From: Daphnia pulex
Lineage: Eukaryota > Arthropoda > Branchiopoda > Diplostraca > Daphniidae
Assembly: GCF_021134715.1 (NCBI RefSeq)
Contig: NC_060025.1
Location: 7,936,001 to 8,000,000 of the forward strand
Direction of reading: 5' to 3'
DNA: 64,000 nt
The translations under genes and the position numbers were made by a program. A model generated the notes under the pieces. It was not told where the DNA came from, made no database searches, and saw nothing but the letters and a program-made list of their open reading frames with translations. Numbering within the stretch: position 1 is the stretch's first letter; each line of letters opens with the position of its first letter. This document shows positions 12,201 through 39,000 of this stretch, piece after piece.

Positions 12201-15136
12201 GCTCATTTGCGTGCCGTTGTCGAGTCGGCCTGGCATTGCATCCTCAAATCCACTCCTTACTTCCCTGCGTAAGTTGCTCAGCGTCAGTTTTTTTCACGTG
12301 GGCGTCCAGGTTTTTATTCATTTTTTTTTATTTCTTCCAGGGAATTGCAAGAATGTTTCTACACGTATCGCCAACGCTTGGCTGGATTCGGTCGTGAAGA
12401 AGTGGCCGATCACCTCATATCCGCTTCCATCTTTCTGCGTTTTCTTTGTCCGGCTATTCTCTCGCCCAGCTTGTTTGGCATCACTCCAGGTAACGTAACC
12501 TAACCTATTCATTCATTTTTAATGAGAGAAGAAGAGGGTTTCACAACGTTTACATATTTTGTTTTGGGTTTTTCCAGAATACCCGAGTGATAAAGCGGCC
12601 CGCAATCTGACGCTGATTGCCAAGACGCTGCAGACGTTGGCCAATTTCACGCGGTTCCAGGGCAAGGAGAATTTCATGGAGTTTATGAACGATTTCCTGG
12701 AGAAGGAAGCGTCAACGATGAAGCAGTACCTGAAGGAGATCTCGAGTCCCTTGTCCAAGGATCAGTGCTACTCCAAGTTTGACGACTACATCGACGTCTG
12801 CAAGAATCTCAGCATCTTGCACACGCTCTTCTCGGAGAGTCTCTCCAAAGTGGCGCCGCTCAGCCAGCGGATGGACAGGCTCCAGCGCATTCTCGACGGC
12901 ATTTCGGCCCATTTGTCGCAACCCGTCACCAGTCTGCCGCCTTATTCACGCCAGACGAGTCTGCCCGTCGTTTCGGCCGGCCTGGTGACAGTCAACGGCC
13001 AGCAGCAGCAGCAGAGAAATTGTAACAAGATGGTCGAAGTGGAACGGCCCGGATTTCAGAGCCTCCAGCGCAACGTTTTCCGTTTCAACGACCCGACTGT
13101 GACGTCGGTGACGGTGTCCGGCAACGGGAATAATGGCAGTCTGAGCAACGCCAATGCTAATAATAGCAATTGCAACGGGCTCCACCTGCAGCAGCAGCAG
13201 CACTCTGGCGCTGAGGGGAGCACGTCGCCCAAGGCTTCCACTCTGCCGCGCAACGCTCATCTGATGACGCCACCCGTCACCACGCCGGGCCTCAATGGCA
13301 ATCTGTCGGCGCCCGGCCGTCGCACTGCCATTGATTTGACAACGAGCGATGATTACGTCATGTTCAGTGCACTCAACCAATCGGCCGACCAGTCTGGCGG
13401 TGGTGGGGCTTCCAGTGGTGGCACGCCGCAGCGTCAGACCGGCAGCAGCAATCACTACGCCGCCGGCGGTGGCAGCACGTTCAATGTCAAAAACGGGTCG
13501 TCGGCCAAGTACGAACGGGTCCTGGGGTTAGGCTCGGCCAGCAGCAAGCAAGCGGCGGCGGCCAATGCCAACCTGGACGAATTTATCGAGTCGCTTCAGT
13601 ACGTTGACGAGAGTCCGGACGCCCATTCCGGCGGCGAGGGGGACAACAACACTCAGGGTAGTCAAGTGTCCATCTCGCAACTCTCGACTGTGGCCAGCTC
13701 TGGTTATCAGAGCTTCGCCTACAGTCAGAGTTCCAGTCCGGTTGATCCTACCATCAGCAACGGGGGCCAGGATCCGCCAGCTTCCGGCAACATCAACGGA
13801 CACCGATCGTCGTCGAGTGGCAGTTTCCGCAAGAGCAGCGCCACCAATTCTTTGACTCCCAACAACAACAGCAACAACCTCAACAACGGCAACGAGCACT
13901 CGGCCGCCATCGCCTTCACCAATCCCGTTTACAATTTGAGGAACAAGCCGACCACTCCACTACCTCGAGGCTACGCTTCCTCTTACGGATACGATAATGT
14001 CCTGAACCGGACGCCCAGCTGCGAGGATGTCCAGGTCATTAGCGCCCCGCGGGTCACTCTCATTTCCAACGGCGGCGGATGCGGTGGCAGCAGTCCCAAT
14101 AACAACAGTCTGAGCAGCGGCACCATGTCCAGGACGCGCATTTCCAGTTCATCGTCGGATTCCACTTCGTGTCTGACGACGCCTCCGCACGAGCGGCGCT
14201 TGTTCATATCGACGGCCCCGCGGACTAATCCGCGCTGCATTTACCCGTCGCCCGTGCCCGCCCAGGTGTCGCCGGTCGAGAGCAACAACGTCTCGGCCGA
14301 TTGCCAGTACGTGGCCATGCGCCGCAAGGGCCGCAAGTCGAGCGTGACGAGCATGCAGAACAATTCTAGGAGCCGCATTTACGACTCGTCGTCATCCGAC
14401 AGCGACTACGACCAGTTGCCGTCCACCAGATTCCGCGACCGCAACGTCAAGAGAGGGTCCAGGATGGCCCTGGATCGTTTCTCCAATCCCAAATCGCTGG
14501 ACGAGGTAATTTTGATTGAATTTCTTTGATTTTTAAAATTGGAATTTGATTGGATTTTTTTTTTTTCCCCAGTACGAGAAAGAGATAATGGATTTACGGA
14601 ACGCGATGGAATCTCTCCAGTCTCGTCTGAGCCGGGCCGAGCAGTTGTACTTGCAGGGAGCCATGCAGGCGGCCCTGGCCGTCAAGGAGCGCGAGCTGGA
14701 GGAGAAGCGACGCGATAACGAATCACGTTCCAGCTTGTCTTCGTCGAGGTACACGCCGTCGCCCATCATGGAACCGCAGCCGCTGGACGAGGTCAAGGAC
14801 AACGGCCAGCTCAAGTCGATGATTACGCGCCTCGTTTCGCTCGAGGAGGAACTGCATCGCGAGAAGCGCAAAATGGCTGACAAGCAGAAAGTGATTGAGG
14901 CCCAAGTGCAGACGATCCAGGCGCTGGATGCCGCCAACAATCGTCTGCTGTCGGCCCTGGCCCAGCTGCGCAATTACCAGGCGGTCGAGCCGGCCGAGCA
15001 CGACGAAGTTGAGCGAAACCTCATGTCTTTTGCCCGCAATTCCTTGCCAGAACCGGACTATGGCGGATCGGGCTCACTTTCTTTGGCCAGGCGGATTCTG
15101 GCCGACTTGGGTGAAGTCCAGAGCAGTTCTTGTTGA
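3299..15136 (+). CDS. raskol: RasGAP of the SynGAP/DAB2IP/RASAL2/Raskol family, 1446 aa
   Basis: This GTPase-activating protein switches off Ras-type GTPases at membranes. Twelve exons: 3299-3617, 6967-7118, 7959-8056, 10626-10874, 10966-11067, 11240-11421, 11492-11661, 11743-11905, 12004-12268, 12341-12489, 12578-14505, 14573-15136. All have GT-AG junctions, matching phases and a total of 4341 nt. The N-terminus is Ser/Gly-rich. A split PH domain follows (about aa 180-290, with SRSHESLL and ERDRW), then a C2 domain (about 285-400, [20 protein letters not shown]). The RasGAP domain spans about 425-700; its arginine finger is R486 in FRGNSLATK and its signature FLRFLCPAI is near 598. A long Ser/Asn/Gln-rich linker fills exon 11. 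The C-terminal coiled coil contains [11 protein letters not shown] and ends SSSC, much like mammalian DAB2IP. The start was chosen for its aaagATGg context. The long 5' introns suggest alternative promoters. Confidence 0.93.
3618..6966 (+). other. Intron 1 of the RasGAP gene
   Basis: A 3.3-kb intron with a gtagta donor and a ttttcacag acceptor, phase 1. It is rich in T and TG/AG runs. Open frames inside it show no family similarity or usable splice phase. I see no nested gene. Confidence 0.7.
9431..9437 (+). promoter_or_regulatory. TATA box for the alternative RasGAP first exon
   Basis: TATAAAA lies 80 bp upstream of the ATG at 9511, inside RasGAP intron 3. It directly follows a TG microsatellite. 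Its role is inferred from spacing and from the in-phase exon downstream. Confidence 0.35.
9511..9602 (+). CDS. Candidate alternative first coding exon of the RasGAP gene
   Basis: An ATG at 9511 opens a 92-nt exon beginning [15 protein letters not shown] and ending at a usable donor (agaag|gtatag). It ends in phase 2, exactly the phase needed to join the exon starting at 10626, so it would encode about 30 Arg-rich residues ahead of the PH domain. The isoform would lack exons 1-3 (about 190 residues). A TATA box sits 80 bp upstream. Fly and mammalian members of this family are known to use alternative first exons. The exon is supported by phase, splice signal and promoter motif only; chance agreement is possible. 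Confidence 0.45.
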
Positions 15137-18203: not shown

Positions 18204-18336
18204 GGACTTTACATCTTCGCCATCATTTGTGATTATTAACATTTGCTGTTGCCTTTGCCTTACAGTATGACACAATGAATAGAAACACATTCTGAATAAC
18301 GGTAGCACCTTACCAACTTGGTGTTTTTCCTTTCAG

Positions 18337-19750
18337 CAATCCACTGTTCAAGTGCTGTTGCCCGGGTGCTGAAACGTATGGAATCATTTACTGATGCCAT
18401 AGAGGAGGCACGTGAACGAATATCACTGCCTTCCCAGTTCCCATCATTGTAGAAGTTGGACTGGCGTCCATTATCACCTCGGGGATTTCGTCTGTTGTGA
18501 TTCTGCGTGGTGGCTTCTTGGTGAAATTTTACGGGGAGAATATTACGTAAGTATGAAAGTCATTTTGTTAATACCTTTGTTTGTTGGTTCTTTCAATTAA
18601 GTTAAGTGTCAACGACCTAGAGCGGACATTGTTTTCATGTTGTACTTTTAAACGCTTCTTCTTTCTGATCTAGACGGCATAGCCTTTGATCATTTTAGTT
18701 ACGTTTACTTTGCACATGTCTGACGAAATTTCTCGCTGCTACTATTAGGAAATTTTGGGAGACTTCTGTCAGTTTCTGTTACAGCAACAGAGCTCACTTG
18801 TTAGATTTTTAATAATGTGTTTTTTTTTCTACTTCCGGTTTTCTCATTTCTGTCAGTAGTTCAGTAAATATTCGTCTGACGCATAAAAGAACAACATTTT
18901 CTTTATCCTCGTAAAATTTGTGGTAAAGTTCATGTTTGTTTTGTACGTACGCGTACTTCCGGTTTCGAGAATTTTCCTGAACTATAGTTCAATAAAATTT
19001 TCGATTTTGACCAAATTCTGGATTTCGTTTAAATTACACCCAATCGACCCCAAATTTCACGTAGATCACGAATATCTCTTTTATTTTGACGGCAGCTCAA
19101 TGGTTAAGGTGCTATGGCTTACTTCCGGTATACTTCCGGAAAATTTGCATAAAAGTAGCAAGTGAGCTTTGTTCTTTGTACATTTCTAAGAATTGGATGC
19201 TAGGCAAACAAAAATGGACTTTTCAAGTTTTCTGAGTATCTTAAGATCAGTCCTTCAAAAGTAAAATACTGAGTTTTGAAACGTGTCAAATAGATGGCGT
19301 GGTGATTGTGTCATTTATGGAATGGCGGTTTGCTGTCAAAAGTTAAGCTATCCTTTCTTCGAAAATTACCAACAAATTCATATGTTAATTCGAGTGATTT
19401 CGTCTCTAACTTGTCGGTGATGTGTTCTTTTCCGTGTGCATGTTGGATAACCTTAATGTTTCTCATCAACTTACAGGAGGAAACGTGAAAGGGACGTGGC
19501 CTTCGTGCAGCCTACCGTTTACTTTTTTGTTCAAAATCATTTTATTCTACTGAATGTGCTATTGAAAGGATACAGGTAATAACCAACACTAGCTTTATCA
19601 ATTTCATGTATTACTGAAACATATTGTCTTTTATTAGGAGTCATAATTATCAGCTGTTTGTATTGGACTTGCTAGATCACCAACAGCCCAGCATAGACCA
19701 ATCTCTCATTTCATCTTCTCGAGAAGATTGGATAACTGGTGGTTTCATGT
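18337..19750 (+). pseudogene. Decayed multi-exon protein gene in the left arm, family unknown
   Basis: Three exon-like blocks have consistent splice signals and phases: 18337-18546 (ctttcag acceptor, GTAAGT donor), 19477-19575 (acttacag, GTAATA) and 19638 to about 19750 (ttattag). Joined, they read through IITSGISSVVILRGGFLVKF, then RKRERDVAFVQPTVYFFVQN, then SHNYQLFVLDLLDHQQP. This gives hydrophobic stretches typical of a membrane protein. The frame fails upstream because stops occur in every frame of the first block. The right-arm copy differs by a 10-nt deletion and a 6-nt insertion in that block. I do not recognise the family. A chance open frame is possible, although two consecutive junctions in phase argue against it. 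Confidence 0.35.
18789..19171 (+). mobile_element. MITE-like element with GAGCTCACTTG terminal inverted repeats (left-arm copy)
   Basis: The element starts AGAGCTCACTTG and ends CAAGTGAGCTTT, so it has terminal inverted repeats of about 12 bp. It is about 383 bp, has no open frame for a transposase, and carries several CTTCCGG motifs. It is the mirror image of the copy at 30200-30582, so it was copied along with the arm. A third, separately inserted and more diverged copy is at 25334-25717. The superfamily and target-site duplication are unresolved. Confidence 0.7.
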
Positions 19751-20620
19751 GTAAGATCACTTATCATGTCACTGAACTTTTTCTGTTTCAGTCTAATATG
19801 TATTTAAAGTATTGATCTCCACTTATTTCTATCTAATGTTTAAGAGACGCTTTTGAGTGTATACTGATAATTTTTTATTCTTTTAGATCATAGACGTCAA
19901 GCAGCACATTGATGACACAAATTATAGACAAGGTGACTTATTTTTCTCTTTTTATTTATAGGTTCTAAACTCCAGGTTTCTAAATTTGCATGGTAGACGA
20001 TTTATTATGAGAAGTCATGTCCTTTCAAGAAAGTCAACAAGGTCCCTTGTTTACTAACCTATTGGCTGCTACCCTTGAATCTCCTTTTTTACTTTCTTAA
20101 GCAGGCCATCTATATTTGAGGTATTGCTTATTCTGTCTCTACAATCTTGTTGGAATATTATTGTCATCCAAATAAATGTTCATTCTGCTTACAGGGTAAT
20201 CCTTCACTACTTGTCATGGACTTCATCCATTGCTGGAAACCAACCTTGAGAGCATGCTGTCATTCAAGACTGATAAATTGTGTAGTTAGCTAAATTTAAC
20301 AAGTGCATATCTGGGCTCCCTTCTTTTCTGTGGCCCCGTTTCCCTAACTAACCACTAACCAACGCCCGCCGGTGGTCACTCACCCGCTGTGAAACCAGGA
20401 GGAGGGGAGGGCTCTGGTCGAACGGGGACTTGGAAGGCGCATGATCCGATGAAAACTTTTGGAGGGTCATGAGTCTAACCCGGAAGCCTAGTATGACTAC
20501 ATCTCCCCGGAAAAACTTGCCTCGTACTTCTCTCTTCTTCTCGGTCCAGATACTATCTCTGGGGGCCGTAGACAAAACCTACAACAGCATGCGCGAGTTA
20601 AAACAATGCATCCACTACCC

Positions 20621-20727
20621 AATGAAACAAAAAGCCATGGTTAATTTTTTGTGGAAATCTCCGTCAGTAAAATTACAAAGACTGACGCAGATTTCCGAAA
20701 AACTAAACCATCGCTTTTTGTCTCATT
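20621..20727 (+). repeat. 107-nt imperfect foldback (left-arm copy)
   Basis: The first 47 nt, starting AATGAAACAAAAAGC, pair with the last 47 nt, ending TTTTTGTCTCATT, leaving a loop of about 12 nt. The stem has only a few mismatches or bulges. It sits inside a GC-richer block (20280-20780) unlike the AT-rich surroundings. Its mirror copy is at 28643-28749. It could be a pre-miRNA-like hairpin, the remains of a foldback transposon, or part of a structured RNA. Confidence 0.6.
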
Positions 20728-21089
20728 GCCGCAGCGGTGGTGGCGGGTTGCGTTTAAACTCGTGCAGTAGTAAACCGTCTTGAACCGGACGCTCTGTTTA
20801 TTGAAATTTTTGTATATAAAAAAAAATAATAAATAACAGTTTAATGTATTAAATGTTTTATTTATTACAGACATCATATTGTTAGGGTTTAACATTGGTT
20901 TATGTGGTTTAGGGTATAAATTCGAGAGTAGGTGTATGTGAGGTTTGAAGAATTGGAAGGTTGAAGTTAGTGGGGCTTGGAGATTAATTGGTGTGGATAT
21001 GTTGGTAGGGTTATAGATTAGATTGGTAGGGTTACTGATTTTTTATCCGAACTTGAAATATCCCCTCTCCAAATTCCTCCACTTTCCTT

Positions 21090-21775
21090 TCCCAATCCCA
21101 AAATCATGTTTATTATTTGTTTGACCTTGACACCCCATATTTCTTTTTTGTTTCTTCTTAACATAATAACGCTAAACTACATTGACACAATGCCAATTAA
21201 ATAAAATAATAATGCAACTTTAACACGACACCAGCACCAAGGAACAGCCAATTGAATTTGATGCAGAAAGATCTATCACCAGCATAGGCTGCAACAACGT
21301 ACCACAGCGGACAGCAACTACGCGAAACCTGTAACCGAAATGAATTAATATTCAGCATCAATGGAATATGGAAATGCTGTCAATGAAAAGACAAATAAAG
21401 GTCACTTTATGTTATTTACAAGAGTTAACACAAATCATTAGCTTACCATTACGAAAATTGTAAATGTCAAATTCAAAATGCTGACTGAAAAAAAAAACAT
21501 GTGTGAATTAGACTGGAACAAAGAAGAAGGTTAGGCTAAGACTTAAACTAGCTGAAAATCTACAGACAATGCAAATTGAACCAAATACTGCCTGCAACTT
21601 CTGTAACAAGACACCAGCAACAAGGAACAGCCACAGGTTATCTTGATGCACAACAATCTTTCACCAGCCAAGGGGTAAACAAACAAAGAACCTTGTTGAC
21701 CGTGTTGGTGGGTTGGCCTTTTCCTTATCCTTCGATGGGCAACAAAATGGTTCTCATTCGGTCTAAATGCAAAAT
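21090..21775 (-). ncRNA. Candidate spliced non-coding transcript, left-arm copy (modules A and B)
   Basis: This is the reverse-strand mirror of the unit at 27595-28280. Read on the - strand it has an exon after a gctttag acceptor, a GTAAGC donor, a second exon after cattgacag, and an AATAAA at 21109-21114. Both exons contain the GCTGTTCCTTG / TGCTGGTGTC module. Open frames are short. Expression is not shown by sequence. Confidence 0.3.
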
Positions 21776-23208
21776 CTAAAGCAAAATTTAAATAAGAAAT
21801 AAAAATAATTAAAACTTTGCACACAAAATGATGAATTCATTTCTCTCTCTTATCAACAACAAATAATTGGATCTGGCGAAGGCATCAATATCTTGAAGAT
21901 TTACAACTTGAAAGGGAAAAGTTAATGTGAACATTATTGTCTTAAAGAACACAGTAATTCAAAATATTTTTGGTAAAATAACTAACCTGCAACAGAAATG
22001 ATTTTTCTTCAGAAGAGAAGACATAGGTTGTGAGCTTGCATTATTGGATTAGACCATTTGGCTATTTCATTTCTATTGTCACAAGCTACATTGAAACGAA
22101 TTATTAAATAAAGATTGCTTTATCTCTTATTACTTAAAACAGTTAACTTGTTATCCGATCTCCGTTGTTAAACTTTTTATGTAACTTGTTGAAAGTTACG
22201 ACGTGTAATGTCATGTCATGTGTGTCTGTGACTGACTGTGCAACTAACTTAAGATTCAAAACTCAATACTAGATGTCGCCAGTGTCGCCAATGTTATTCT
22301 TTCATGGTGAAACGAGGCGAAATGAGCGAAACAACAAATAGTTGCCAATTATACTTATATAAGTATAATCACAGGAATATTCCTGTGATTTCAAATACCA
22401 AATTTAACTTCGTATCTTATGTAGGTTTATCTTTACTTAGTTCTCTTATTTTTATACTGTACCAACTTATTTCTTCAAATTCTAGATGCATACTGTCAGT
22501 CATTCCAACAATGACTTAGTGCTCAGTCAATTTTCCATCCATTAGATCCTCATGCTGTCAAAAGCCTAAAACTCATGTTTGAAGAGCACATATAGTGGAA
22601 TACAAATGTGCTGGGATAAGGTATTTCCCCATTACTGCTACCAGACCATTTCAATTCAGATTTTCATGTAACATAGGTATTCTTGCTTATGAACCATAGG
22701 ATTTTTTCTGAATCCCGCAATTTTGGTGATGTACTCTGCAACAGCATGTTTGTTGTTAATGACTGTTTTTACTTTGGTTCAGAAGGCAACCCAACTAAGA
22801 GATAGGTATAGTCTTATGTCTTATAGGTAAATTTGTGTAAATTTGTAAATAACATAGAGAATTTCCGTGTCCCATTTCCACTTAGAGTTTCAGTGACATG
22901 AAGAATCTGAAGTGAACCACCTATCACCACGCTACTGCAATACTTCATGACACTTTCTTTAGCATCAGGAAATTTATCTCAACATGTGGAGTAATGCTGT
23001 TGGTTGCTGTGAATTCCATTTTTATGGTTTGTCATCATGAACATTTCAACGTGTTTCTTAGGAAAGGTAAAGATTGATATGCTTTATTCATTTTTATATT
23101 TTCATTATTGTAAAACATTTTTTTTTACAGAGCACTTCTTTGTGGAATCGTGTTATACAGGAATAAGTGTAAATTAGCAACTATTTGTTTCGCTCATTTC
23201 GCCTGGGG

Positions 23209-23342
23209 GACATTTAATTCGTTGGAGTTTTATTGTTGGACATTTAAAATTCATTCAACTACGCGACAAACAATAGAACTCCAATAAATTCTTTAATTAT
23301 TTAAATGTCCGACAATAGAACTCCAACGATTTTAAATTTCCG
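23209..23342. repeat. Small inverted repeat / foldback
   Basis: Arms of roughly 45 bp, GACATTTAATTCGTTGGAG at the left and its near-complement ending AAATTTCCG at the right, enclose a short centre with another GGACATTTAAA match. The element is about 134 bp, AT-rich and non-coding. It lies next to the inner breakpoint of the left arm. Confidence 0.6.
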
Positions 23343-23867
23343 ACAATCCATCTACAGTCAAACAGTAATGGTGGAGGAATCTTTTGGCTCCGTCAGTAGG
23401 TGGCTAAAACGTAGTTGTCCCCCAGCCACCAGGTGACGCGAGTGTCGTCGAGAGGACGAATTTTCGCCATTTTTTTCCGAAACGCTAAGTGAAAAGGTAT
23501 TCCAAATTCGTTACGGAATTGCGTTGTCGATCTACATTTTCAGCATTAAAATTTAATGGGTAAATTACTACATTCTAGTTTGGATTTGGTAAATTTAATT
23601 AATCCTAGACGTTGCTGTTTGAATTTATAGGCAATCTCATATAATTTCCACTTGGCCAAATAATCGATCACGTGGACTGAAACTGCTTAGTGCTTTCCAT
23701 TTTGCCGAAATGTCCGTTGTTTAGCTGTACCTGTTTTGATGTACTCTCATCTCACGTAAAAACACTACAGAGGACCAGAGGTAGTAGAGTAATTTGGTTG
23801 ATCAATTTCCCTGCAATAATGCTGTAGATTTTAATAGTTGGTGTTCAGGTTGGAGCTCCTGTTGCAG

Positions 23868-24730
23868 AATGTGAGAACTCAACACATTCTGGGCTCCATG
23901 GCTTCATGGCCATGGCCACATGGTTTTGTTGCAGCCAGCTGGTGAAAGGCGTGATTGAGTCAAGTTGAGCTGCAGCTGCTGCATGCAGTTTTTCGAGCTG
24001 GTGTTATCCTGAAGTGTCATTGCAGGAAGACTTTTTGAAATGGTAAGTTGATTTAATTGATTGATTGTAACTTGGGAAGTCTTGTGTCTTTTTTTTTATA
24101 TTCAACTGACAAGTAAATCTGATCTGATGTAGACAATAAGTGGTGCTATTTCTTGCTTCCAATTAATAGTTTCCGTGAATGATATCAGATAGCAATCCTT
24201 TGAGTTAACAACTTTCTTCTGATCAAACTAACTAAAATTTAATAAATATATAAAGATAAATCAACAAAAATTTCCACTCTGTATTGCAAACTTTTTCTAA
24301 CACTAAAGAATTAGGTGTACAGAATTCTCTTTTCCTGGGATTTAATCTTCATTTAAAATTTCATTTGCCAATGGAATCTTGGGAAAATGTCTGTCATTTG
24401 TTTTACATGATTTCTTTTGCATGTTAGTTTGATCATGGAAAATAATATTCCTTTTCCCCCCATAGGACTTGGTGAAACTATGCTGTTCAATGTGCAGTGG
24501 TTTTGCAGCCTATTTCCAGTTGAGAGATGTGATTATGCAGCTGATACACGATTGAAGAAAAAGAACTGAAGTAGCTGTGCTGGTGTTCTCCTGAAATTGC
24601 TGTGCCATAGGAGTTGCAGATACTGTTGGTTCCTCATAGAAGTTTATTTAAAGAGTCTGGAGATGATCAGTCACTGCCTATAACTTATGTAAAACCTCAT
24701 TGAAATAAATATAAAAGTGAAGTGCTAAAT
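23868..24730 (+). ncRNA. Candidate spliced, polyadenylated non-coding transcript (modules D and E)
   Basis: One exon, 23868-24042, is framed by a tgttgcag acceptor and a perfect GTAAGT donor. A last exon starts at 24466 after ccccccatag and carries AATAAA at 24704-24709. Both contain the locus-wide module (TTGCAGCC, GCTGGTGA, then TGCTGGTGTT with CTCCTGAA/ATCCTGAA). Neither has a long open frame. The first exon or exons are unknown; they may lie in the left flank near 16.6-17.4 kb. Confidence 0.35.
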
Positions 24731-24859
24731 ATGACTTTATTATAAGTTTTAAGACACAGCAAACAAGAAAGTTAAAAGGAATTGCTTTATTGTCCCACCT
24801 CCACCCACAATTCCACCACTTTTTACAATAACACACATACATACATACACTTAAGTTAA

Positions 24860-25064
24860 CCCGTTGGCTGCCACGCCATACAACCCGTAGGTTGTTCTCT
24901 ACTCTCTACGCGCCATGTCTGAAGGATCCATGGCCAAGGTGGGACTTGCCATTGCTGACAAGTCCGGGCTGACACAGGATAAGATGGAATGCACGTCTCA
25001 AGGAGGCCTCTAGGAGGCCCGTGCTAAGGAGAGGGGGGAGAACAAAGGCGTGGCAGACAACGGG
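24860..25064. mobile_element. TTAA-flanked MITE, piggyBac-like
   Basis: A 205-bp element starts CCCGTTGGCTGCCACGCC and ends with the near-perfect complement GGCGTGGCAGACAACGGG. It is flanked on both sides by TTAA (24856-24859 and 25065-25068). TTAA target duplication and ends beginning CCC are hallmarks of piggyBac-type elements. It has no coding capacity, so it is a non-autonomous copy. Family assignment rests on the TTAA and CCC ends. Confidence 0.75.
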
Positions 25065-25333
25065 TTAACTAACACAAACACAAATATTACCAACAACAAA
25101 TGATGATCCGCGCTGACATTTTGGAGATAACGGAGATGTTTTAGTGTCCATCTTCTCGACGTCTCCTCTGCATTACCTGAATAAAGACAAAACAATTGTT
25201 ATTCAGTGAAATGCCAATAAAAGTTATATAATACAGATAGAAACAATAATCAGGTTTTTTAGCTCAAAGATTTAAAGATGCAATTTTTTAAACTTAAAAT
25301 CAAGCTTGCAACATTGAGAACTGTAAACAGAAT

Positions 25334-25717
25334 AAAGCTCACTTGCTAGTTTTTTGAAAATTTTCCGGAAGTATACCGGAAGTAACCACAGCGCCTCAAC
25401 CATTGAGCTGTCGTCAAATTAAACCACATATTCGTGATCTCCATGAAATTTGGGGTCGATTAAGTGTGATGTAAACGAAATCCAAAATTTGGCCAAAATC
25501 GAGAATTTTCCTGAACTATAGTTCAGGAAAATTTTCAAAACCGGAAGTACGAAAACGTACAAAAAAAAACATGAACTTTACCACAAATTTGACGAGGATC
25601 ACGAATTTGTGGTTCTTTTGTACGTGGAATGAATATTTACTGAACTACTGACTGAAATGAGCAAACCGGAAGTAGAAAAAAAAAACACATTATCTAAAAA
25701 TATAACAAGTGAGCTTT
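25334..25717 (-). mobile_element. MITE-like element with GAGCTCACTTG terminal inverted repeats (spacer copy)
   Basis: This is the same element as at 18789 and 30200 but diverged from both, so it is a separate insertion. It starts AAAGCTCACTTG and ends CAAGTGAGCTTT, 384 bp in all. The middle contains a perfect 26-bp palindrome at 25506-25531, centred on CTATAG. No transposase is encoded. Confidence 0.7.
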
Positions 25718-27594
25718 GTTGGGGGAATAGTTATCGTCAGTTTTCACAAACAAATTTCCACAGAACAGCTGCCGATAACTGGTTAAAGAGATTTTAAAGT
25801 AACTGAAACTGACTGTTTTAACAGCTGACATCTATCGGAAAGCCATCTAGCGTTAGAAAATTGTCTAAGTAACACTACGTATGAAGTAAGGCCTGATTTC
25901 GAAATTATTACAGACACAAGTAAGTATACTATTAGAATAGATAATCTACGAAAATAAGTAAATTGTCGGGTACCTGGGCATAATCCCGTGGTGAGTGACT
26001 GCAGGTGTGTAACAGCGGCACGGAAGCGACCAGCCGACCACTGTGTTCCAACTCGTGAGTGAAGTAAGACAAGTTGTATTTTTGTGTACGAAGCGATGAA
26101 GCAGAAGCTGGATGAGCGTACGTCGGGAAGATAAGGATGGAGCAGAACGTTGGTCATGGACAAAATCACAAAAGCCAGCGTTGGTTCAAGAATCTCCGTG
26201 CCAGGACCACACGATTCCACAAAGAAGTGCTCTGTAAAAAAAAATGTTTTACAATAATGAAAATATAAAAATGAATAAAGCATATCAATCTTTACCTTTT
26301 CTAAGAAACACGTTGAAATGTTCATGATGACAAACCATAAAAATGGAATTCACAGCAACCAACAGCATTACTCCACATGTTGAGATAAATTTCCTGATGC
26401 TAAAGAAAGTGTCATGAAGTATTGCAGTAGCGTGGTGATAGGTGGCTCACTTCAGATTCTTCATGTCACTGAAACTCTAAGTGGAAATGGGACACGGAAA
26501 TTCTCTATGTTATTTACAAATTTACACAAATTTACCTATAAGACATAAGACTATACCTATCTCTTAGTTGGGTTGCCTTCTGAACCAAAGTAAAAACAGC
26601 CATAACAACAAACACGCTGTTGCAGAGTACATCACCAAAATTGCGGGATTCAGAAAAAATCCTATATAGGATTTTTTGCAGGATTTTTTGCCTATATGGT
26701 TCATAAGCAAGAATACCTATGTTACATGAAAATCTGAATTGAAATGGTCTGGTAGCAGTAATGGGGAAATACCTTATCCCAGCACATTTGTATTCCACTA
26801 TATGTGCTCTTCAAACATGAGTTTTAGGCTTTGACAGCATGAGGATCTAATGGATGGAAATTGACTGAGCACTAAGTCATTGTTGGAATGACTGACAGTA
26901 TGCATCTAGAATTTGAAGAAATAAGTTGGTACAGTATAAAAATAAGAGAACTAAGTAAAGATAAACCTACATAAGATACGAAGTTAAATTTGGTATTTGA
27001 AATCACAGGAATAAGTATAAATTAGCAACTATTTGTTGTTTCGCTCATTTCGCCTCGTTTCACCATGAAAGAATAACATCGGCGACACTGGCGACATCTA
27101 GTATTGAGTTTTGAATCTTAAGTTAGTTGCACAGTCAGTCACAGACACACATGACATGACATTACACGTCGTAACTTTCAACAAGTTACATAAAAAGTTT
27201 AACAACGGAGATCGGATAACAAGTTAACTGTTTTAAGTAATAAGAGATAAAGCAATCTTTATTTAATAATTCGTTTCAATGTAGCTTGTGACAATAGAAA
27301 TGAAATAGCCAAATGGTCTAATCCAATAATGCAAGCTCACAACCTATGTCTTCTCTTCTGAAGAAAAATCATTTCTGTTGCAGGTTAGTTATTTTACCAA
27401 AAATATTTTGAATTACTGTGTTCTTTAAGACAATAATGTTCACATTAACTTTTCCCTTTCAAGTTGTAAATCTTCAAGATATTGATGCCTTCGCCAGATC
27501 CAATTATTTGTTGTTGATAAGAGAGAGAAATGAATTCATCATTTTGTGTGCAAAGTTTTAATTATTTTTATTTCTTATTTAAATTTTGCTTTAG

Positions 27595-28280
27595 ATTTTG
27601 CATTTAGACCGAATGAGAACCATTTTGTTGCCCATCGAAGGATAAGGAAAAGGCCAACCCACCAACACGGTCAACAAGGTTCTTTGTTTGTTTACCCCTT
27701 GGCTGGTGAAAGATTGTTGTGCATCAAGATAACCTGTGGCTGTTCCTTGTTGCTGGTGTCTTGTTACAGAAGTTGCAGGCAGTATTTGGTTCAATTTGCA
27801 TTGTCTGTAGATTTTCAGCTAGTTTAAGTCTTAGCCTAACCTTCTTCTTTGTTCCAGTCTAATTCACACATGTTTTTTTTTTCAGTCAGCATTTTGAATT
27901 TGACATTTACAATTTTCGTAATGGTAAGCTAATGATTTGTGTTAACTCTTGTAAATAACATAAAGTGACCTTTATTTGTCTTTTCATTGACAGCATTTCC
28001 ATATTCCATTGATGCTGAATATTAATTCATTTCGGTTACAGGTTTCGCGTAGTTGCTGTCCGCTGTGGTACGTTGTTGCAGCCTATGCTGGTGATAGATC
28101 TTTCTGCATCAAATTCAATTGGCTGTTCCTTGGTGCTGGTGTCGTGTTAAAGTTGCATTATTATTTTATTTAATTGGCATTGTGTCAATGTAGTTTAGCG
28201 TTATTATGTTAAGAAGAAACAAAAAAGAAATATGGGGTGTTTATGTCAAACAAATAATAAACATGATTTTGGGATTGGGA
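27595..28280 (+). ncRNA. Candidate spliced non-coding transcript, right-arm copy (modules A and B)
   Basis: Exon 27595-27923 follows a tttgctttag acceptor and ends at a GTAAGC donor. A second exon begins at 27994 after cattgacag and ends near AATAAA at 28256-28261. Both exons contain GGCTGTTCCTTG followed by TGCTGGTGTC, paralogous to each other and more distantly to the modules at 17.3, 23.9 and 24.5 kb. A 93-codon open frame (27546-27827) begins inside the putative intron, so it is unlikely to be a protein product. Confidence 0.35.
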
Positions 28281-28642
28281 AAGGAAAGTGGAGGAATTTG
28301 GAGAGGGGATATTTCAAGTTCGGATAAAAAATCAGTAACCCTACCAATCTAATCTATAACCCTACCAACATATCCACACCAATTAATCTCCAAGCCCCAC
28401 TAACTTCAACCTTCCAATTCTTCAAACCTCACATACACCTACTCTCGAATTTATACCCTAAACCACATAAACCAATGTTAAACCCTAACAATATGATGTC
28501 TGTAATAAATAAAACATTTAATACATTAAACTGTTATTTATTATTTTTTTTTATATACAAAAATTTCAATAAACAGAGCGTCCGGTTCAAGACGGTTTAC
28601 TACTGCACGAGTTTAAACGCAACCCGCCACCACCGCTGCGGC

Positions 28643-28749
28643 AATGAGACAAAAAGCGATGGTTTAGTTTTTCGGAAATCTGCGTCAGTCTTTGTAATTT
28701 TACTGACGGAGATTTCCACAAAAAATTAACCATGGCTTTTTGTTTCATT
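28643..28749 (-). repeat. 107-nt imperfect foldback (right-arm copy)
   Basis: Mirror copy of 20621-20727; the stem and loop are conserved. It lies in the GC-richer block 28590-29090. Confidence 0.6.
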
Positions 28750-29619
28750 GGGTAGTGGATGCATTGTTTTAACTCGCGCATGCTGTTGTAGGTTTTGTCT
28801 ACGGCCCCCAGAGATAGTATCTGGACCGAGAAGAAGAGAGAAGTACGAGGCAAGTTTTTCCGGGGAGATGTAGTCATACTAGGCTTCCGGGTTAGACTCA
28901 TGACCCTCCAAAAGTTTTCATCGGATCATGCGCCTTCCAAGTCCCCGTTCGACCAGAGCCCTCCCCTCCTCCTGGTTTCACAGCGGGTGAGTGACCACCG
29001 GCGGGCGTTGGTTAGTGGTTAGTTAGGGAAACGGGGCCACAGAAAAGAAGGGAGCCCAGATATGCACTTGTTAAATTTAGCTAACTACACAATTTATCAG
29101 TCTTGAATGACAGCATGCTCTCAAGGTTGGTTTCCAGCAATGGATGAAGTCCATGACAAGTAGTGAAGGATTACCCTGTAAGCAGAATGAACATTTATTT
29201 GGATGACAATAATATTCCAACAAGATTGTAGAGACAGAATAAGCAATACCTCAAATATAGATGGCCTGCTTAAGAAAGTAAAAAAGGAGATTCAAGGGTA
29301 GCAGCCAATAGGTTAGTAAACAAGGGACCTTGTTGACTTTCTTGAAAGGACATGACTTCTCATAATAAATCGTCTACCATGCAAATTTAGAAACCTGGAG
29401 TTTAGAACCTGTAAATAAAAAGAGAAAAATAAGTCACCTTGTCTATAATTTGTGTCATCAATGTGCTGCTTGACGTCTATGATCTAAAAGAATAAAAAAT
29501 TATCAGTATACACTCAAAAGCGTCTCTTAAACATTAGATAGAAATAAGTGGAGATCAATACTTTAAATACATATTAGACTGAAACAGAAAAAGTTCAGTG
29601 ACATGATAAGTGATCTTAC

Positions 29620-31033
29620 ACATGAAACCACCAGTTATCCAATCTTCTCGAGAAGATGAAATGAGAGATTGGTCTATGCTGGGCTGTTGGTGATCTAGCA
29701 AGTCCAATACAAACAGCTGATAATTATGACTCCTAATAAAAGACAATATGTTTCAGTAATACATGAAATTGATAAAGCTAGTGTTGGTTATTACCTGTAT
29801 CCTTTCAATAGCACATTCAGTAGAATAAAATGATTTTGAACAAAAAAGTAAACGGTAGGCTGCACGAAGGCCACGGCCATTTCACGTTTCCTCCTGTAAG
29901 TTGATGAGAAACATTAAGGTTATCCAACATGCACACGGAAAAGAACACATCACCGACAAGTCAGAGACGAAATCACTCGAATTTACCTATGAATTTGTTG
30001 GTAATTTTCGAAGAAAGGATAGCTTTACTTTTGACAGCAAACCGCCATTCCATAACTGACACAATCACCACGCCATCTATTTGACACGTTTCAAAACTCA
30101 GTATTTTACTTTTGAAGGACTGATCTTAAGATACTCAGAAAACTTGAAAAGTCCATTTTTGTTTGCCTTGCATCCAATTCTTAGAAATGTACAAAGAACA
30201 AAGCTCACTTGCTACTTTTATGCAATTTTTCCGGAAGTATACAGGAAGTAAGCCATAGCACCTTAACCATTGAGCTGCCGTCAAAATAAAAGAAATATTC
30301 GTGATCTACGTGAAATTTGGGGTCGATTGGGTGTAATTTAAACGAAATCCAGAATTTGGTCAAAATCGAAAATTGAACTTAGTTCATGAAAATTCTCGAA
30401 ACCGGAACTCCGGAAGTACGCGTACGTACAAAACAAACATGAACTTTACCACAAATTTTACGAGGATAAAGAAAATGTTGTTCTTTTATGCGTCAGACGA
30501 ATATTTACTGAACTACTGACAGAAATGAGAAAACCGGAAGTAGAAAAAAAAACACATTATTAAAAATCTAACAAGTGAGCTCTGTTGCTGTAACAGAAAC
30601 TGACAGAAGTCTCCCAAAATTTCCTAATAGTAGCAGCGAGAAATTTCGTCAGACATGTGCAAAGTAAACGTAACTAAAATGATCAAAGGCTATGCCGTCT
30701 AGATCAGAAAGAAGAAGCGTTTAAAAGTACAACATGAAAACAATGTCCGCTCTAGGTCGTTGACACTTAACTTAATTGAAAGAACCAACAAACAAAGGTA
30801 TTAACAAATATGACTTTCATACTCACGTAATATTCTCCCCGTAAAATTTCACCAAGAAGCCACCACGCAGAATCACAACAGACGAAATCCCCGAGGTGAT
30901 AATGGAGATGGACGCCAGTCAATGATGGGAACTGGGAAGGCAGTGATATTCGTTCACGTGCCTCCTCTATGGCATCAGTAAATGATTCCATACGTTTCAG
31001 CACCCGGGCAACAGCACTTGAACAGTGGATTGC
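29620..31033 (-). pseudogene. Decayed multi-exon protein gene in the right arm, family unknown
   Basis: Mirror of 18337-19750. Splice sites are kept (GTGAGT instead of GTAAGT at the first donor). The first block differs from the left arm by a 10-nt deletion and a 6-nt insertion that puts a stop before the hydrophobic stretch. The second block reads RKREMAVAFVQ instead of RKRERDVAFVQ. Each arm has its own lesions, which suggests that neither copy is fully constrained now. Confidence 0.3.
30200..30582 (-). mobile_element. MITE-like element with GAGCTCACTTG terminal inverted repeats (right-arm copy)
   Basis: Mirror image of the element at 18789-19171, with the same ends (AAGCTCACTTG and CAAGTGAGC) and the same CTTCCGG-rich interior. 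It was present before the arms were duplicated, or was transferred between them. Confidence 0.7.
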
Positions 31034-31165
31034 TGAAAGGAAAAACACCAAGTTGGTAAGGTGCTACCGTTATTCAGAATGTGTTTCTATTCATTGTGTC
31101 ATACTGTAAGGCAAAGGCAACAGCAAATGTTAATAATCACAAATGATGGCGAAGATGAAAAGTCC

Positions 31166-32030: not shown

Positions 32031-35000
32031 TTATCTTTCTTCAAATTCGTGACTAGTTGGGACTATCTGAAATAACTTCTGGAAGAAAATTGTGATGAAA
32101 CCTGTGTGAAGATGAGAAAAATATAACATTTATGATTAAGGTTAATTAATTAAAACACGGAATGGCATTTTACTTATTCCCGGTAACGATTTCTTATAGT
32201 ATACGAAAGGTATGTAGAAAATAAGACCAGTGGAAATGAAAAGTAGGACATAGAAGTATTGCACTTGTGGAGCCGCGGCTATGGGTGCGACAACCAGGAT
32301 AGCTGAAACCACCATAACAATAACTGGAATGATGATGGGCACCTTTATTTAAATATTTACCAAGAAACAATGAAAAAACCAAGGGACAGGAATTCAATAG
32401 AATCTGCTAGTAGCACCTTAATTGGTCTATGTTCGTCTTTTTTCGTGAATCTCATTACTATCAATGCCACCATAGCAGCGCAATAAAAGATTGAAATTGC
32501 GAATCCGAAGAAATCTATTAGCGAAGCTATATCTCCTGGGATGATCATAAGTATCCCCAAGAGGCTCTAAATACAAGTTTGAATATTAGTTGTATAATCC
32601 AGGGTTAATGAAGATTCAATGAATTTTTACGGTCAACAAAATTGGGGCAATAGGCGTCTTCCTTTCGAAGTGTATGTAAGAGAGAAAATCAGGAGATTGA
32701 CCTTCTCGCCCAACAACATGTGAGATCCTTGAATTACATGAATTAAATTCAAGGACTATTTGAATTTTCCTATTTTTCCTACCTTCCTGCAGCAAACAAC
32801 GTTCCATTTGTTGTACCAATAACTGATATCACTACTCCTAGCGGAATTAAGAAACTGGCAGAGCCCAGCACTGCATCTCCCCAGTCCTTCAAAAAGGATA
32901 TTAATAGGATATTATAAATTAAAACTGATTAGTTACTAAAGAAATCTTCTACTCACCACAGCAACCACATCCGAGGAGATTATCTGTTGTGGTGTTAAAA
33001 CAGTTAGATAGGAAACGTTGATGAGCACATAGCAGATGGTGGTTAATGGAAGAGCGATAATAATGGCCAACGGCAGATTCCTAGAAATTAATGCAACGGA
33101 AAAATAAAAAGCGTAGTGTACAATCTACATATAGCCTAGGTGTTTATATTTGCATGCGGACGCACCTGTACGGATTTTTCAGCTCTTCCGTAATAAAGTT
33201 TAGATTGTTCCTGGAACCCAAACAAATAACAAATAAAATCTTATTTTCAGTAATTCAATTTAAGTCTATTACCAGCCACTATAAGCCCAGAGTCCTCCAT
33301 AGAATGCTGTAGCTATTTGCCCGAACGAAGAGGCTGATCCTTCAAACCCAATTTCCAGATTTTCAGTGTACCCTGCATAGTAGTTGGTATATACTTCAGT
33401 TACAGCAAAACAACGATGTTAGCTCAGACTACCATACCTAAACCTAGGTAATACAATCCTCCACCAATAATGATGGCAATGGCAGTCAGTTTTCCAACCG
33501 TGAAAATGTTTTGTACGTGCGTAGCGCCCTTTACCGAGTTACAGTTAACAAAAGTAATGGCACCTGGATAAAATGTGGCAATTTAACAGAAGGTCGTTTT
33601 CAGTAACTTATTCATGTACCTATGCAAATGGTAGCCAGAAGTCGATCTAAAACGTAGGTTAGATATTCATCCGGACAAAAATTTACTGCCGTCAGGATAG
33701 GTGAGCTTAAATACTTGGCGAATGAAAGCGATAAAATTGCTACTGATGAAGGGTTAATTAGAAAAACTGTAACCCAAGCGAAGATGAAGGCTAATATTGG
33801 CCCAAAGAATTTATGCGTCGGCCCAAATGCTTCAAGAAAATATATGTATTCTCCTGTGATATAATTGAAATTTAGTTTTTTTTAAATTATTCAAAATTTG
33901 GATTTTAAAATAGAATCCTACATAACTTATTTTTCTACACGGGAAACAAAAAGAAAAATTAGCAGCCTTACCTCCAGATTTAGGTATCAACGTACCAATC
34001 TCGCAATAAGCTATGGCACCTAAAACGAAAAAAAAAGGAAAATAAATGTTTGTTTTCTCAACTGTCACATTTAAGGCAGTCAGAGATAAATTCACGATTC
34101 AGTCACAACTATTTTCCCCATTATTAGTTTAGAGATTTTCTTTTAAGTTGATGGAGTCCGTAAATTACGTCACTATTATCATGCATAATCTTACAAAAAC
34201 AGTGTAAGCCGGGATTTTGTGAAGTCATCGGTCCAAAATTCAACATAATGCTGGTAATACACGCAGATCGAGGTGAAAGTGTACATCCGTTTTCAACATT
34301 TTTAGTTTTCTATCTACCATAGTAAATTTTTCCTTTGGCAAGCCAATTGCCCAAAAGGGTGCAATCATGTTACATTGCCAAAATTTCGCAAGATATTTTA
34401 GAAAACCGCAAAAAACACGGAATGTAAAACAGAAAGCTATCAACATCCGCCACAGTCTTACCTTATCAGACAAAATGGTCAAGGATTATTATTCATTACC
34501 TTTGTTTAACTATGCTATTTTATGTGAACGATGTACTTTGGAATGATTTTTAGCCTCTAAGGGCTCAATGGACTAATACAACAGTTTACGTAAAAATATA
34601 AAAACAAACATTCAGGATCGACTTGCCTAGTAAAGAGTAAACACCACACACACCCCAGAGGACGAGACATAATCCAGGAGACCCCGCACTGCAAATGAAA
34701 TTAAAAAGGGTCGTGAAATTGTTATTTGATTTTATTTTCATTTTTTAAAATTCATAACCTACTTGGCTAGAAGACTTCCCGCTGATACAAATATGCCGGA
34801 GCCGATCATAGTTCCCACGATAAGGGTAACGCCACTGAACAGTCCAACCTGAAACCATGCTGTGAAATTTAATCAAAGTTTTTACGTGAATCCAAAAATG
34901 CTTTACAACCCTATCAAAACAGTCTAAGACTCGTAAAAATTGCGATTCTAGCAAAAAGAGGGAGTTTACTGTTAAACCCACATGTCTGCTATTATACATC

Positions 35001-36072: not shown

Positions 36073-39000
36073 TCAAACACCTGGGTTCAGAAGAACCAAA
36101 TCCAATTGTTGAATGACAAACAAGATTTTTTCAGCTTCTGAAAGTTCAATCCAAGACGTAAGATTAATGACAACAATAAAGGTAAATCCCATTTTCTTAA
36201 GAGTTCGTAGTTCCATATGGTGGACAGTTCTCAGGTTGCCATCAGAACTATAAGCTTGAGGGCGGAAAATTTTCCAAAGCACCCTGAAGTAAAAAAAAAG
36301 TAATGAAATTATAAAAACAAAAACAATTATTTCATATAAATAAAGAATTGTTACAATCGATTTCCATTTTTGATGTGCAGATCTTCCACAAATCGTGATT
36401 TATTGGTAAAACTGTCCCATACCGGGTTTATAGGAACAGGAGTCTTATCCATGCTGAATATGGTGGCGAAGTCTACAAATGACAAATATAATTAACTTAA
36501 AAATTAATTTGTTTTGTACAAATGTCTAATAATTTAGTGACTTACCAATATTGTGGCCTTTTCTAGTAAAGAGACGACTGAGAACGTGAACTGGTCCATC
36601 CAGCACAGCCTGTAAAGTCTCTTCAATTTGTGAAAAAAAATCTTCAGCAACAACTTGACCGTCTTGAGAACATAGCCGAATAGACGCTTTCTCGAAGGAA
36701 GGCATCGCATTAGAGAAATCAGAACTGTGATGCAATGCATGTTGAGTTGTTAATTTGGGTGTAGTAGTACTGGATGGCACCTCACGCATAGTCTCACTAG
36801 TTTGAGTGTATGCTCTGGATGTTTCGTTATGTTTTAGTCTTTCGCACAGACTTTTAACGGAAAGTTTTCTACATGCTGCATCTCCAGCACATAAGAGCTT
36901 GCGTGAATGACATTTCAAGTCAGGCCGGCATTGAAAGAAGTAGCGAGGGCAACTTACACTAGAATTCTTTGGCTTCTCAGGCTTCATTTTATCGACAATC
37001 AAATCGTTCAGTTTAGCACAAAGTTCTTCATTGGTGAGATGCTCGCATCCGGCAATACTGTTACACAATGTCTTTCTTGGCATGCAGGCAGAATGTTGTG
37101 GGCAGCTCAGATAGTTGAGTGGACAAAACAGTTTCCGATCAACATTACTGCAGACGCTGCTGTCCTCATCTTCTCCATCTTGACAATCTGAATCTCTGTC
37201 GCACACCCAACTAAGAGGAATACAAGTGTGACTGTTGGAGCAATAGAATTGCGTCGATGAACACATGGAATGAGTGCTGGTACAATTGGCTTCGTCGGAC
37301 TTGTCGTTACAATCTTCGTTACCATCGCAAACGGCCGAGCGAGGAATACAGTGACGTTGATTAGGACAGGAGTATTCACCCTCTCTCAAACATACATGCG
37401 GAGGGCAAGATTCGGGCTCGTCGGATTTATCCTGACAGTCGGCGTCTCCATCACAGTAGAAATGGATCGAAACACATCCTCCGTTTTTACATTGAAACTG
37501 TGAACTGGTACAACCTACTTCTGTCGTCGTGTTGCGGCACTGGAGCTCATCTACACCTAGGACACAATCGTTGACTCCATCGCATCGGAACTTGGCTGGA
37601 ATACAACTGCCTTGACATTTAAACCATTCAACACCAACGCAGTCGGCTTTAGTACAGACGTGTTTATCTTCTCCCAATACTTTACCCAATGGACACAGGC
37701 AAGTGACTCCATCAGGTGTTGGTGCGCAAATGTCACTGCAACCTCCAGTATGCCCCAAGCAATGATGATCGTGACTGTTGAAATCGAAAAGATCAATAAC
37801 TGACATCAAACGATACTGAACGGTTATGTTCTCGGAAGCGTCGATAACAAAGCCGCGCACAGTTTTCGGATCTTGCTTGTTCAACCAGCTGATGCGAGTG
37901 GAGGATTGAGTCAGCCAAAAAACGGAATCTGAACTGGCGTCCATAGCAACCGGAGTGCCCAGATGAGAGTGAAGGATGGTTCGATTTTCACCGTTGACTT
38001 CAATCCGTTCAATTGTACCTCGCAGGGAGTCGCTGAAGTAGAGATGTTGGCCGTCGTAAGCCATGGCCGATACAGTACCATAAACTTGAACCAACTCCTG
38101 TCGGTTAGTACCATCCATATGCCAGACGCTGATGACGTGACTGATGCGGCCCTCGACGATGAACATCCTGCCGGATTGGGATCCAATGGTAATACCTTGC
38201 GGGCTGTAAAGATCTCGGGCCAATACTAGTCTTTCGTAAACACCGTCGTGATTTTTTTGACCAACTACGACAGTTCCCCGAGTAACTTCCGTCCAGTAAA
38301 TGTTCTCCGTGAAAGGATCCACGTCCAATCCCTCGACCATGTCGACGTTTTCGAAGAGAACTGTCTGACGATAAGTATCCAGATGCATCGAGTAGATTGT
38401 CCTCTGGATCATGTCGCTGTAGACAATTGAGTGGCCTAAGGGGTTGTACGCCAATGCACCGATGTTTTCCACGTTACGCGTAGGCAGACGAAAGATGGAA
38501 TCCTTGCCAATCTGGTGATGAGTCATGCGATAAATGCCAGTGAAAGTTGCGATGACGATGGAAGACTCATGGGCGGAAATAGACTCGCAGGTACGGCCGT
38601 CTTTGTTCAGAGTCATTCCAACAGGGCAGGAGCACTTGTAGCCTTGAACGGTTGGTGAAAGAAGACAGAGATGGCTGCAAATCACGTTTCGGCAGGGGTT
38701 GGTGAGATGGTTTTGCTTGGAAGGATGATGAACGTGGATGCCAGTTGGAGTTAATGAAGCCTCCTTCATCAAAATCTGGAAAAGTTTGATTTAAAGAATT
38801 TACTTGCCATCATTGACTCGCAAATCTGAAGATTAGTAATACCTTGTAATCCTTTCCGGTAAACTTGTTGACGGAAAGAACTTCGTGCTCCAAAGGATCG
38901 CACCAAAAGATTGTGTTTTCAAATATATCGAGAGCGTACGGATGGGTCACTTTAACGGGCAGGATTTTACGATCAGATCCATCAATCTTCGAACTTTTAA

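Follow-up and report, generated by a model that had tools for sequence, protein, structure and literature searches.

Mutator-type elements have conserved long terminal inverted repeats (TIRs), their conserved sequence being terminal. Mammalian Y palindromes are gene-bearing, with arms kept nearly identical by arm-to-arm conversion, hpRNA loci have long inverted arms, and dispersed 5S rRNA genes are multi-copy RNA genes in which a short conserved unit sits in divergent surroundings at many loci. For parthenogenetic animals, the portions of PMC7953838 at hand describe a gene-based palindrome survey in which Daphnia pulex was not screened, its annotation lacking there. In the Drosophila element Galileo, according to the portions of PMC4168063 at hand, about 89% of those copies whose ends are preserved carry identical target-site duplications (TSDs) of 7-8 bp, and some copies contain a transposase segment.

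The mirror-image locus in the window

The window is the whole stretch of D. pulex DNA that was analysed, 64,000 nt long, and within it a 13-kb locus has the following parts, in window coordinates.

18204-23153, + strand: left arm of the palindrome (self-comparison, arm-to-arm alignment)
23154-26208, no strand: spacer between the arms (genome search)
26209-31165, - strand: right arm, reverse complement of the left arm (self-comparison, arm-to-arm alignment)
18776-19210, + strand: MITE-like module of about 430 bp, left arm (consensus)
30160-30596, - strand: MITE-like module, right arm (consensus)
25317-25721, - strand: third copy of the MITE-like module, partial and inverted, in the spacer, about 405 bp and 87% identical (self-comparison, consensus)

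Self-comparison of the window recovers the arms as reverse complements at the outer coordinates given by the first-pass annotation, pairing the outer ends (18204-18449 with 30920-31165) and the inner ends (22759-23153 with 26209-26603), with an ungapped block of 3,355 nt between them (18996-22350 with 27020-30374). The global alignment, about 4.99 kb long, contains 4,874 matches, 42 mismatches and 9 gap events (75 columns). This match is far above chance, and the inverted repeat at 18204-31165 is confirmed as real. The annotation had proposed aligning the arms for identity along their length; that identity is 99.1% without gaps and 97.7% with gaps, and the near-perfect tract is confined to the arm middle, since 19704-22203 of the left arm has 4 mismatches against the right arm and no gaps, and the other 38 mismatches and all of the gaps are in the remaining parts. 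Hence the symmetry is near-perfect in mid-arm but not perfect overall, as had been claimed, and the longest perfect runs reach 1,166 and 1,160 nt, beyond the identical stretches of 190-315 nt reported earlier. The MITE-like module has, by eye, a consensus with imperfect terminal inverted repeats of the AACAAAGCTCACTTG type.

Palindromes are hard to assemble, and this one is known here from assembled sequence, which raises the question of an artefact. The window arms differ at 51 places, however, the arms of nine other palindromes span 95.1% to 100% identity, and a paralogue at C9:8.23 Mb is likewise built of two arms. Because of the 51 differences, and because 32 inward core pairs are listed genome-wide (the window's included), we regard an assembly artefact as highly improbable.

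In a tree of the two window arms and 25 other arms, the window arms form a clade with support of 100/100, separate from the other 25. Where both arms of a palindrome are in the tree, they are strongly supported sisters or identical in 6 of 9 cases. In the other 3 they are not sisters, an observation that runs against the mobile-element reading given below. Since the arms are closest relatives in 6 of 9 palindromes and the near-perfect tract is limited to mid-arm, the view that the arms of one copy are kept alike by recent or ongoing arm-to-arm conversion is well supported. Recent duplication had been offered beside ongoing conversion as the source of the symmetry; the 100/100 clade and the confinement of near-identity to mid-arm support conversion.

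A dispersed noncoding repeat family

In the D. pulex assembly, whose 133,188,837 bases underlie all genome-wide counts, the 13-kb locus is a member of a dispersed noncoding repeat family with mirror-image and single-armed copies. Matching pieces number at least 43 for arm piece 19100-20500 (31 on C6 among the matches listed; 40 of 918 candidates scored), at least 40 for the outer arm and at least 63 for the inner arm (40 candidates scored for each), and at least 66 for the spacer part 23160-25000 (40 of 645 candidates scored), with 45 pieces of the last on the same chromosome, C9, among the matches listed. A 30-mer of the core described below has at least 299 copies at up to 3 mismatches, 234 of them exact, as compared to 182 copies, 65 exact, for a flank 30-mer, and cores are present on all twelve chromosome-scale contigs. 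The single-armed unit has the following extent.

23270-30590, + strand: single-armed unit, spacer plus one arm (locus comparison)

It is met, often partial, at other C9, C7 and C12 loci. Among the matches listed, sequences of the spacer and of the outer C6 parts keep largely or entirely to one chromosome, and subfamilies largely confined in this way (C6, C9) would reflect mostly local spread or within-chromosome recombination.

Orientation and neighbors were counted on 184 listed cores of the at least 299. Among these there are 35 neighboring pairs up to 20 kb apart, 32 of which point inward (+-) and none outward (-+), the rest being ++ (2) and -- (1). Some pairs have a long spacer, among them the 17-kb pair at C4:3.571-3.588 Mb. 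By hand count, 116 of the 184 have no listed neighbor within 20 kb, with unlisted partners possible. Regular spacing is absent in the listed positions on six chromosomes (gap CV 0.66-1.06, gaps over 1.5 Mb excluded).

The first-pass annotation had pictured an hpRNA locus, in which transcription of both arms would give long double-stranded RNA and endogenous siRNA. The arms are near-identical over 2.5 kb around a 3-kb spacer, as such a locus would have them, but conservation peaks in the core and not along the arms, and single-armed copies exist; we judge hpRNA production quite unlikely as the explanation. The idea of one special hpRNA locus is not supported, since the window locus belongs to a family whose copies, dispersed over the genome, number in the hundreds, and 116 of the 184 listed cores have no listed neighbor within 20 kb.

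We favor, at about even confidence, the reading that the locus is a copy of a very long-armed repeat of foldback-like type, mobile now or formerly, whose core is needed in cis, and we infer a mobile-element origin for the family as a whole. An element with very long TIRs, its two inverted arms flanking a spacer, would have spread, with single-armed copies existing beside two-armed ones; after insertion, arm-to-arm gene conversion would keep both arms of a copy alike; and the core would stay nearly unchanged if the element needs it in cis, candidate roles being recognition, replication or transcription. Foldback features found are the long inverted arms and the dispersed copies sharing arm orientation, and the inward pairing of the cores is as for terminal inverted repeats.

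At the 6 palindromes for which both ends were covered, no TSD was found, shared words being no longer than in shuffles; at the window ends the longest shared word is GATAGT, reached by 40 of 200 shuffles. This comparison left out C6_3526, C6_2948 and C6_4684 (3 of 9 palindromes), the arms of which extend beyond the sequence examined. No common terminus was found among the same 6. Twelve open frames from arms, spacers and outer parts, a small share of all frames, gave no Pfam match above cut-off (0/12) and no transposase. The absence of TSD, common terminus and transposase within these samples stands against the element reading, and so does the depth of the core within the arm (about 2 kb or more), which is unusual for a transposase site. 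A protein-coding gene family was considered as well and rejected, on the 1-nt indels by which core subtypes differ, the lack of a Pfam match above cut-off in the 12 frames, and the absence of codon-position bias in one outer C6 frame. If the family is mobile, a model crustacean would have a foldback-like element family whose arms are unusually long, whose subfamilies mostly keep to one chromosome each and whose internal core hardly varies; such a family might also give rise to inversions.

The 205-nt core

The conserved core is the most unusual feature of the locus and was absent from the first-pass annotation. It and the hairpins around it are placed as follows.

20299-20503, + strand: conserved noncoding core, 205 nt, left arm, inward-pointing (alignments, genome search)
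28867-29071, - strand: conserved noncoding core, 205 nt, right arm, inward-pointing (alignments, genome search)
20433-20477, + strand: strongest local hairpin within the core (folding, z -3.9)
20619-20728, + strand: hairpin after the core, shortened in the window (locus comparison)

The two window cores are identical. Over 31 copies gathered without a core criterion, divergence is 0-3% in the core, versus 4-10% in the 120 columns preceding it and 3-33% in the sequence after it. In a further set of 27 copies, the conservation is sharp-edged across eleven contigs while the flanks diverge; these were picked by an exact core 30-mer, so that zero divergence within that 30-mer is by construction. 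In both window arms and both C9:8.23 Mb arms the core departs from the consensus at 0/205 sites, versus about 5% upstream, and an exact core 89-mer has 103 copies, on C2 to C10.

Variants were compared in copies located by a 26-nt anchor in which up to 3 substitutions were allowed; each locus contributed a single arm, at 18 loci and then at 17 after leaving out the C6:3.812 Mb copy. Shared variants occupy 4/205 core sites versus 156/924 upstream sites (p 1.6e-10), about a ninefold depletion, and private variants 14/205 versus 147/924 (p 5.5e-4), about 2.3-fold, with p 0.0038 when the anchor is removed. Per site, private variants come to 0.068 in the core versus 0.093 in the least variable 205-nt upstream stretch. 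These comparisons support selection as the probable cause of core conservation. Strong conservation along lineages with weaker conservation per copy is as expected of an element's cis sequence. That private variants are somewhat depleted in the core at all is unlike dead element copies and is to be set against the element reading, although the least variable upstream stretch is not much higher than the core.

Another reading, which we put forward tentatively, makes the core a host-functional multi-copy unit, with palindromes and flanks arising by birth-and-death duplication around it, with conversion. A structured noncoding RNA gene of about 200-300 nt would be the likeliest such unit, with a chromosome-organising DNA site as the second choice. 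The sharp edges across eleven contigs, the 103 exact 89-mers and the unchanged cores of the window and C9:8.23 Mb arms all fit this, as do two results of folding: the local hairpin scores z -3.9 to -4.6 in 5/5 copies folded, and a hairpin about 165 nt downstream is present in 3/5 (1/3 of subtype A, 2/2 of subtype B), its sequence differing between A and B. At the place of the hairpin after the core, several C6 copies are about 260 nt longer. Against a host unit, the predicted fold of the 251-nt stretch is no more stable than that of shuffled sequence, whichever strand is taken (z +0.8 and +1.2), the covariation terms of the alignment are -1.1 to +0.5 with no clear covariation, no Rfam family reaches gathering score in the window, and private variants are depleted only about 2.3-fold. 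At E up to 10, Rfam gives two microRNA and two bacterial sRNA models in 20150-20850, all below gathering scores and placed on or beyond the hairpin following the core, not on the core itself. An snRNA-type (Pol II/III) promoter, suggested by known motifs, found no support; in this genome the upstream regions of five U1 genes, of which three are near-identical, have by eye no core-like block, which also tells against the host unit. As to a prokaryotic or viral origin, exact matching found a core 30-mer nowhere in viral_contigs and a core 23-mer nowhere in genome_contigs. It is possible, though doubtful, that a functional noncoding unit of 205 nt, an RNA gene or chromosome-organising site, has gone unrecognised in the water flea, where it would be dispersed in about 300 copies and kept nearly invariant by selection on individual copies inside conversion-symmetrised palindromes. 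If the core does serve the host, conserved noncoding units of this kind would form a large class so far overlooked in a genome that has been well studied.

The core might instead be a functionless recombination hotspot, homogenised between loci by short-tract gene conversion. Exchange is suggested by the C6:3.812 Mb copy, whose upstream part is close to the C6 copies, at 2.5% from consensus, and is joined to a B-type core having 9/205 changes from consensus yet an exact B-type 44-mer, and by the palindromes at C6:3.127 and C6:3.276 Mb, whose arms are exchanged in the tree. The core edges are sharp rather than graded, however, and the identical 89-mer is on C2 to C10 despite chromosome-restricted spacer and outer C6 sequences, so that conversion between chromosomes would have had to act on the core alone. 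We consider the hotspot unlikely.

Comparison with known systems

In open-licence PubMed Central literature on Daphnia repeats, palindromes, centromeres, foldbacks and lncRNAs, judged by titles and the starts of abstracts, no paper recognisable as describing the family was found, and four core oligos occur nowhere in the open-licence PubMed Central text searched. Dispersed 5S rRNA genes resemble the core in having a short conserved unit, divergent surroundings and many loci, but the core matches no Rfam family at gathering score. The hpRNA loci share the long inverted arms; the Daphnia locus differs as a repeat family and not a unique locus. Mutator-type elements share a conserved inverted sequence of about 200 bp with other parts divergent, but theirs is terminal and the Daphnia core sits deep within the arm, at about 2 kb or more. 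Like the palindromes of the mammalian Y and those in the portions of PMC7953838 at hand, the Daphnia arms are kept nearly identical by apparent arm-to-arm conversion; those palindromes are gene-bearing, whereas no gene was found in the Daphnia arms and the cores are on all twelve chromosome-scale contigs.

The foldback-like DNA transposons Galileo (P superfamily, Drosophila; portions of PMC4168063) and Tetris (PMC4079207) resemble the family in their very long inverted arms and dispersed copies, and in structural variation and rearrangements between copies. Galileo has TSDs and transposase segments, according to the same portions of PMC4168063; in the Daphnia family neither was found, at 6 palindromes and in 12 open frames respectively. 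An invariant internal core does not appear in those portions of PMC4168063, which put the second-longest TIRs at 1,575 bp, versus 5 kb for the arms in the Daphnia window.

The window palindrome and its dispersed relatives

Self-comparison bears out the inverted repeat described in the first-pass annotation, with a symmetry that is high but not, as had been claimed, perfect: aligned end to end, the left arm (18204-23153, plus strand) and the right arm (26209-31165, minus strand) have 4,874 matching positions, 42 mismatches and 9 gaps. They come nearest to identity at 19704-22203 (4 mismatches, 0 gaps), the longest perfect arm-to-arm runs are 1,166 and 1,160 nt, and both ends are more diverged than the middle. 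Because the arms differ from each other, the palindrome is unlikely to be an assembly echo. The neighboring features are:

14546-15133, plus strand, DAB2IP C-terminal-like domain, encoded next to the palindrome
32360-32566, minus strand, amino-acid permease fragment (E = 0.00059, below Pfam's cut-off)
36526-39568, minus strand, LDL-receptor-type domains, encoded next to the palindrome

The locus had been viewed as a single one, and is instead one member of a dispersed family with many matches in the 133,188,837 bases (13 contigs) searched. A 1.4-kb piece of the window arm has at least 43 matches among the best 40 of 918 candidates scored, and of those listed 31 are on contig C6, at 86-91% identity. 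With the best 40 candidates scored for each, the outer arm, inner arm and spacer have at least 40, 63 and 66 matching pieces. Since 45 of the 66 spacer pieces listed are on C9, the window's own contig (where it spans 7936001-8000000), and the outer piece of one C6 copy has 10 matching pieces (9 candidates), all on C6, the subfamilies are partly chromosome-restricted. Among the matches listed, C6 copies resemble the window arm more closely than most C9 copies do.

Some copies on C9, C7 and C12 are single-armed units matching window 23270-30590 wholly or partly, and a two-armed layout like that of the window is found at C9:8.223-8.240 Mb with 93-94% identity. Self-comparison gave inverted arms on C6 at 1.322, 1.863, 2.948, 3.127, 3.276, 3.410, 3.526 and 4.684 Mb, and elsewhere at C4 2.010 Mb and C9 8.223 Mb; arm identity is 95.1%-100% in nine of these ten. 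A MITE-like module of 430 bp, in which the ACTTCCGG motif occurs several times, sits in the arms and spacer of the window (18776-19210, 25317-25721 and 30160-30596) and also in the other fetched loci.

A nearly invariant core

Conservation along the repeat unit reaches its maximum, 100%, inside the arm, where the core of about 205 nt is found at 20299-20503 and, identically, in mirror at 28867-29071. Across 31 copies gathered without any core criterion, mean pairwise divergence is 0-0.03 in the core; it is 0.04-0.10 over the 120 columns that precede the core and, downstream, 0.03-0.33. Another 27-copy set, selected by an exact core 30-mer and drawn from eleven contigs, contains two core subtypes, A and B, separated by single-base indels, and the core is therefore noncoding. 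The genome holds 299 copies of the core 30-mer at up to 3 mismatches, 234 of them exact, as against 182 (65 exact) for a control 30-mer that lies about 118 bp upstream and 0 for the reversed 30-mer. A core 44-mer has 234 copies at up to 3 mismatches, an 89-mer has 103 exact copies, and the subtype-B version of that 44-mer has 61 exact copies, with 24 on C1. The notable result is that about 300 copies spread over the genome share a noncoding core that hardly varies.

When one arm is taken per locus (17 loci), variants shared between loci are seen at 4 of the 205 core sites versus 156 of 924 upstream sites (p = 1.6 × 10−10), and private variants at 14 of 205 versus 147 of 924 (p = 5.5 × 10−4). 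The private-variant test gives p = 0.0038 at these 17 loci minus a 26-nt anchor, and p = 0.0011 with all 18 loci (16/205 versus 154/924). Because private density is 0.093 in the least variable 205-nt upstream stretch versus 0.068 in the core, there is modest evidence that selection acts on each core copy. In both window arms and both arms at C9:8.23 Mb the core has 0 changes from consensus, as against about 5% upstream.

That the core serves the host, as an RNA gene or a chromosome site, we consider a live reading but less likely than not. A 45-nt hairpin within it scores z = −3.9 to −4.6 in 5 of 5 folded copies, and a second, about 165 nt downstream, has z below −1.5 (the print threshold) in 3 of 5, its sequence differing between subtypes. 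The 251-nt stretch folds no better than shuffles, no covariation is evident, no known RNA family was matched, and the U1 upstream regions compared by eye have no block that resembles the core. Four U1 snRNA matches on C8 (6945980, 6954851, 6963722 and 6972593), spaced exactly 8,871 bases apart, are apparently a recent tandem array.

Orientation, conversion and likeness to foldback elements

From match lists, 184 of the 299 core positions were gathered by hand. Neighbors no more than 20 kb apart are arranged +− in 32 cases, ++ in 2, −− in 1 and −+ in 0, and for 116 of the 184 the lists show no neighbor within that distance. The five B-type cores at C9:1.340-1.362 Mb, ordered + + − − − and about 5.46 kb apart within each orientation, are a nested palindromic array; by eye it adds one +−, one ++ and two −−, with −+ still at 0.

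A tree of 27 arms was made from the 1.1 kb that precede the core. In six palindromes (the window, C9 8.223 Mb and C6 1.322, 2.948, 3.526 and 4.684 Mb) it places both arms as strongly supported sisters or they are identical, which supports the arm-to-arm gene conversion proposed at first pass. They are not sisters at C6 3.127, 3.276 and 3.410 Mb; C6 1.863 Mb and C4 2.010 Mb, with one arm each in the tree, are uncounted. The first-pass reading is thereby half right: its conversion stands, its single locus does not, and its siRNA source is a conjecture. Between C6:3.127 and 3.276 Mb (fetched loci L013, L014 and L015), arms are swapped and one flank is common in inverse orientation, which suggests rearrangement via the repeats, possibly an inversion or duplication. 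The copy at C6:3.812 Mb (L023) has a B-type core with upstream sequence similar to that of the C6 copies, and is a case of recombination inside the repeat family.

We put at about even the chance that the repeat is a foldback-like element, mobile or once mobile. The long inverted arms, constant core orientation and many copies favor this, as do 12 scanned open frames with no protein family and the nesting of another element within one copy. That guest, a 357-aa open frame at L027:7213-8283 (C9:9.188 Mb), has by eye a zinc knuckle and an endonuclease-like motif, matches Pfam zf-RVT at E = 0.019, below cut-off, and resembles the C-terminal part of an R2-like non-LTR retrotransposon. Against an element, no transposase was found, and six palindromes with both ends in hand have no target-site duplication or common terminus, in a test left partial by three C6 palindromes that extend beyond the fetched DNA. 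For these reasons the repeat is not classed as a member of the foldback family, and is likened to foldback elements as a repeat that works like one.
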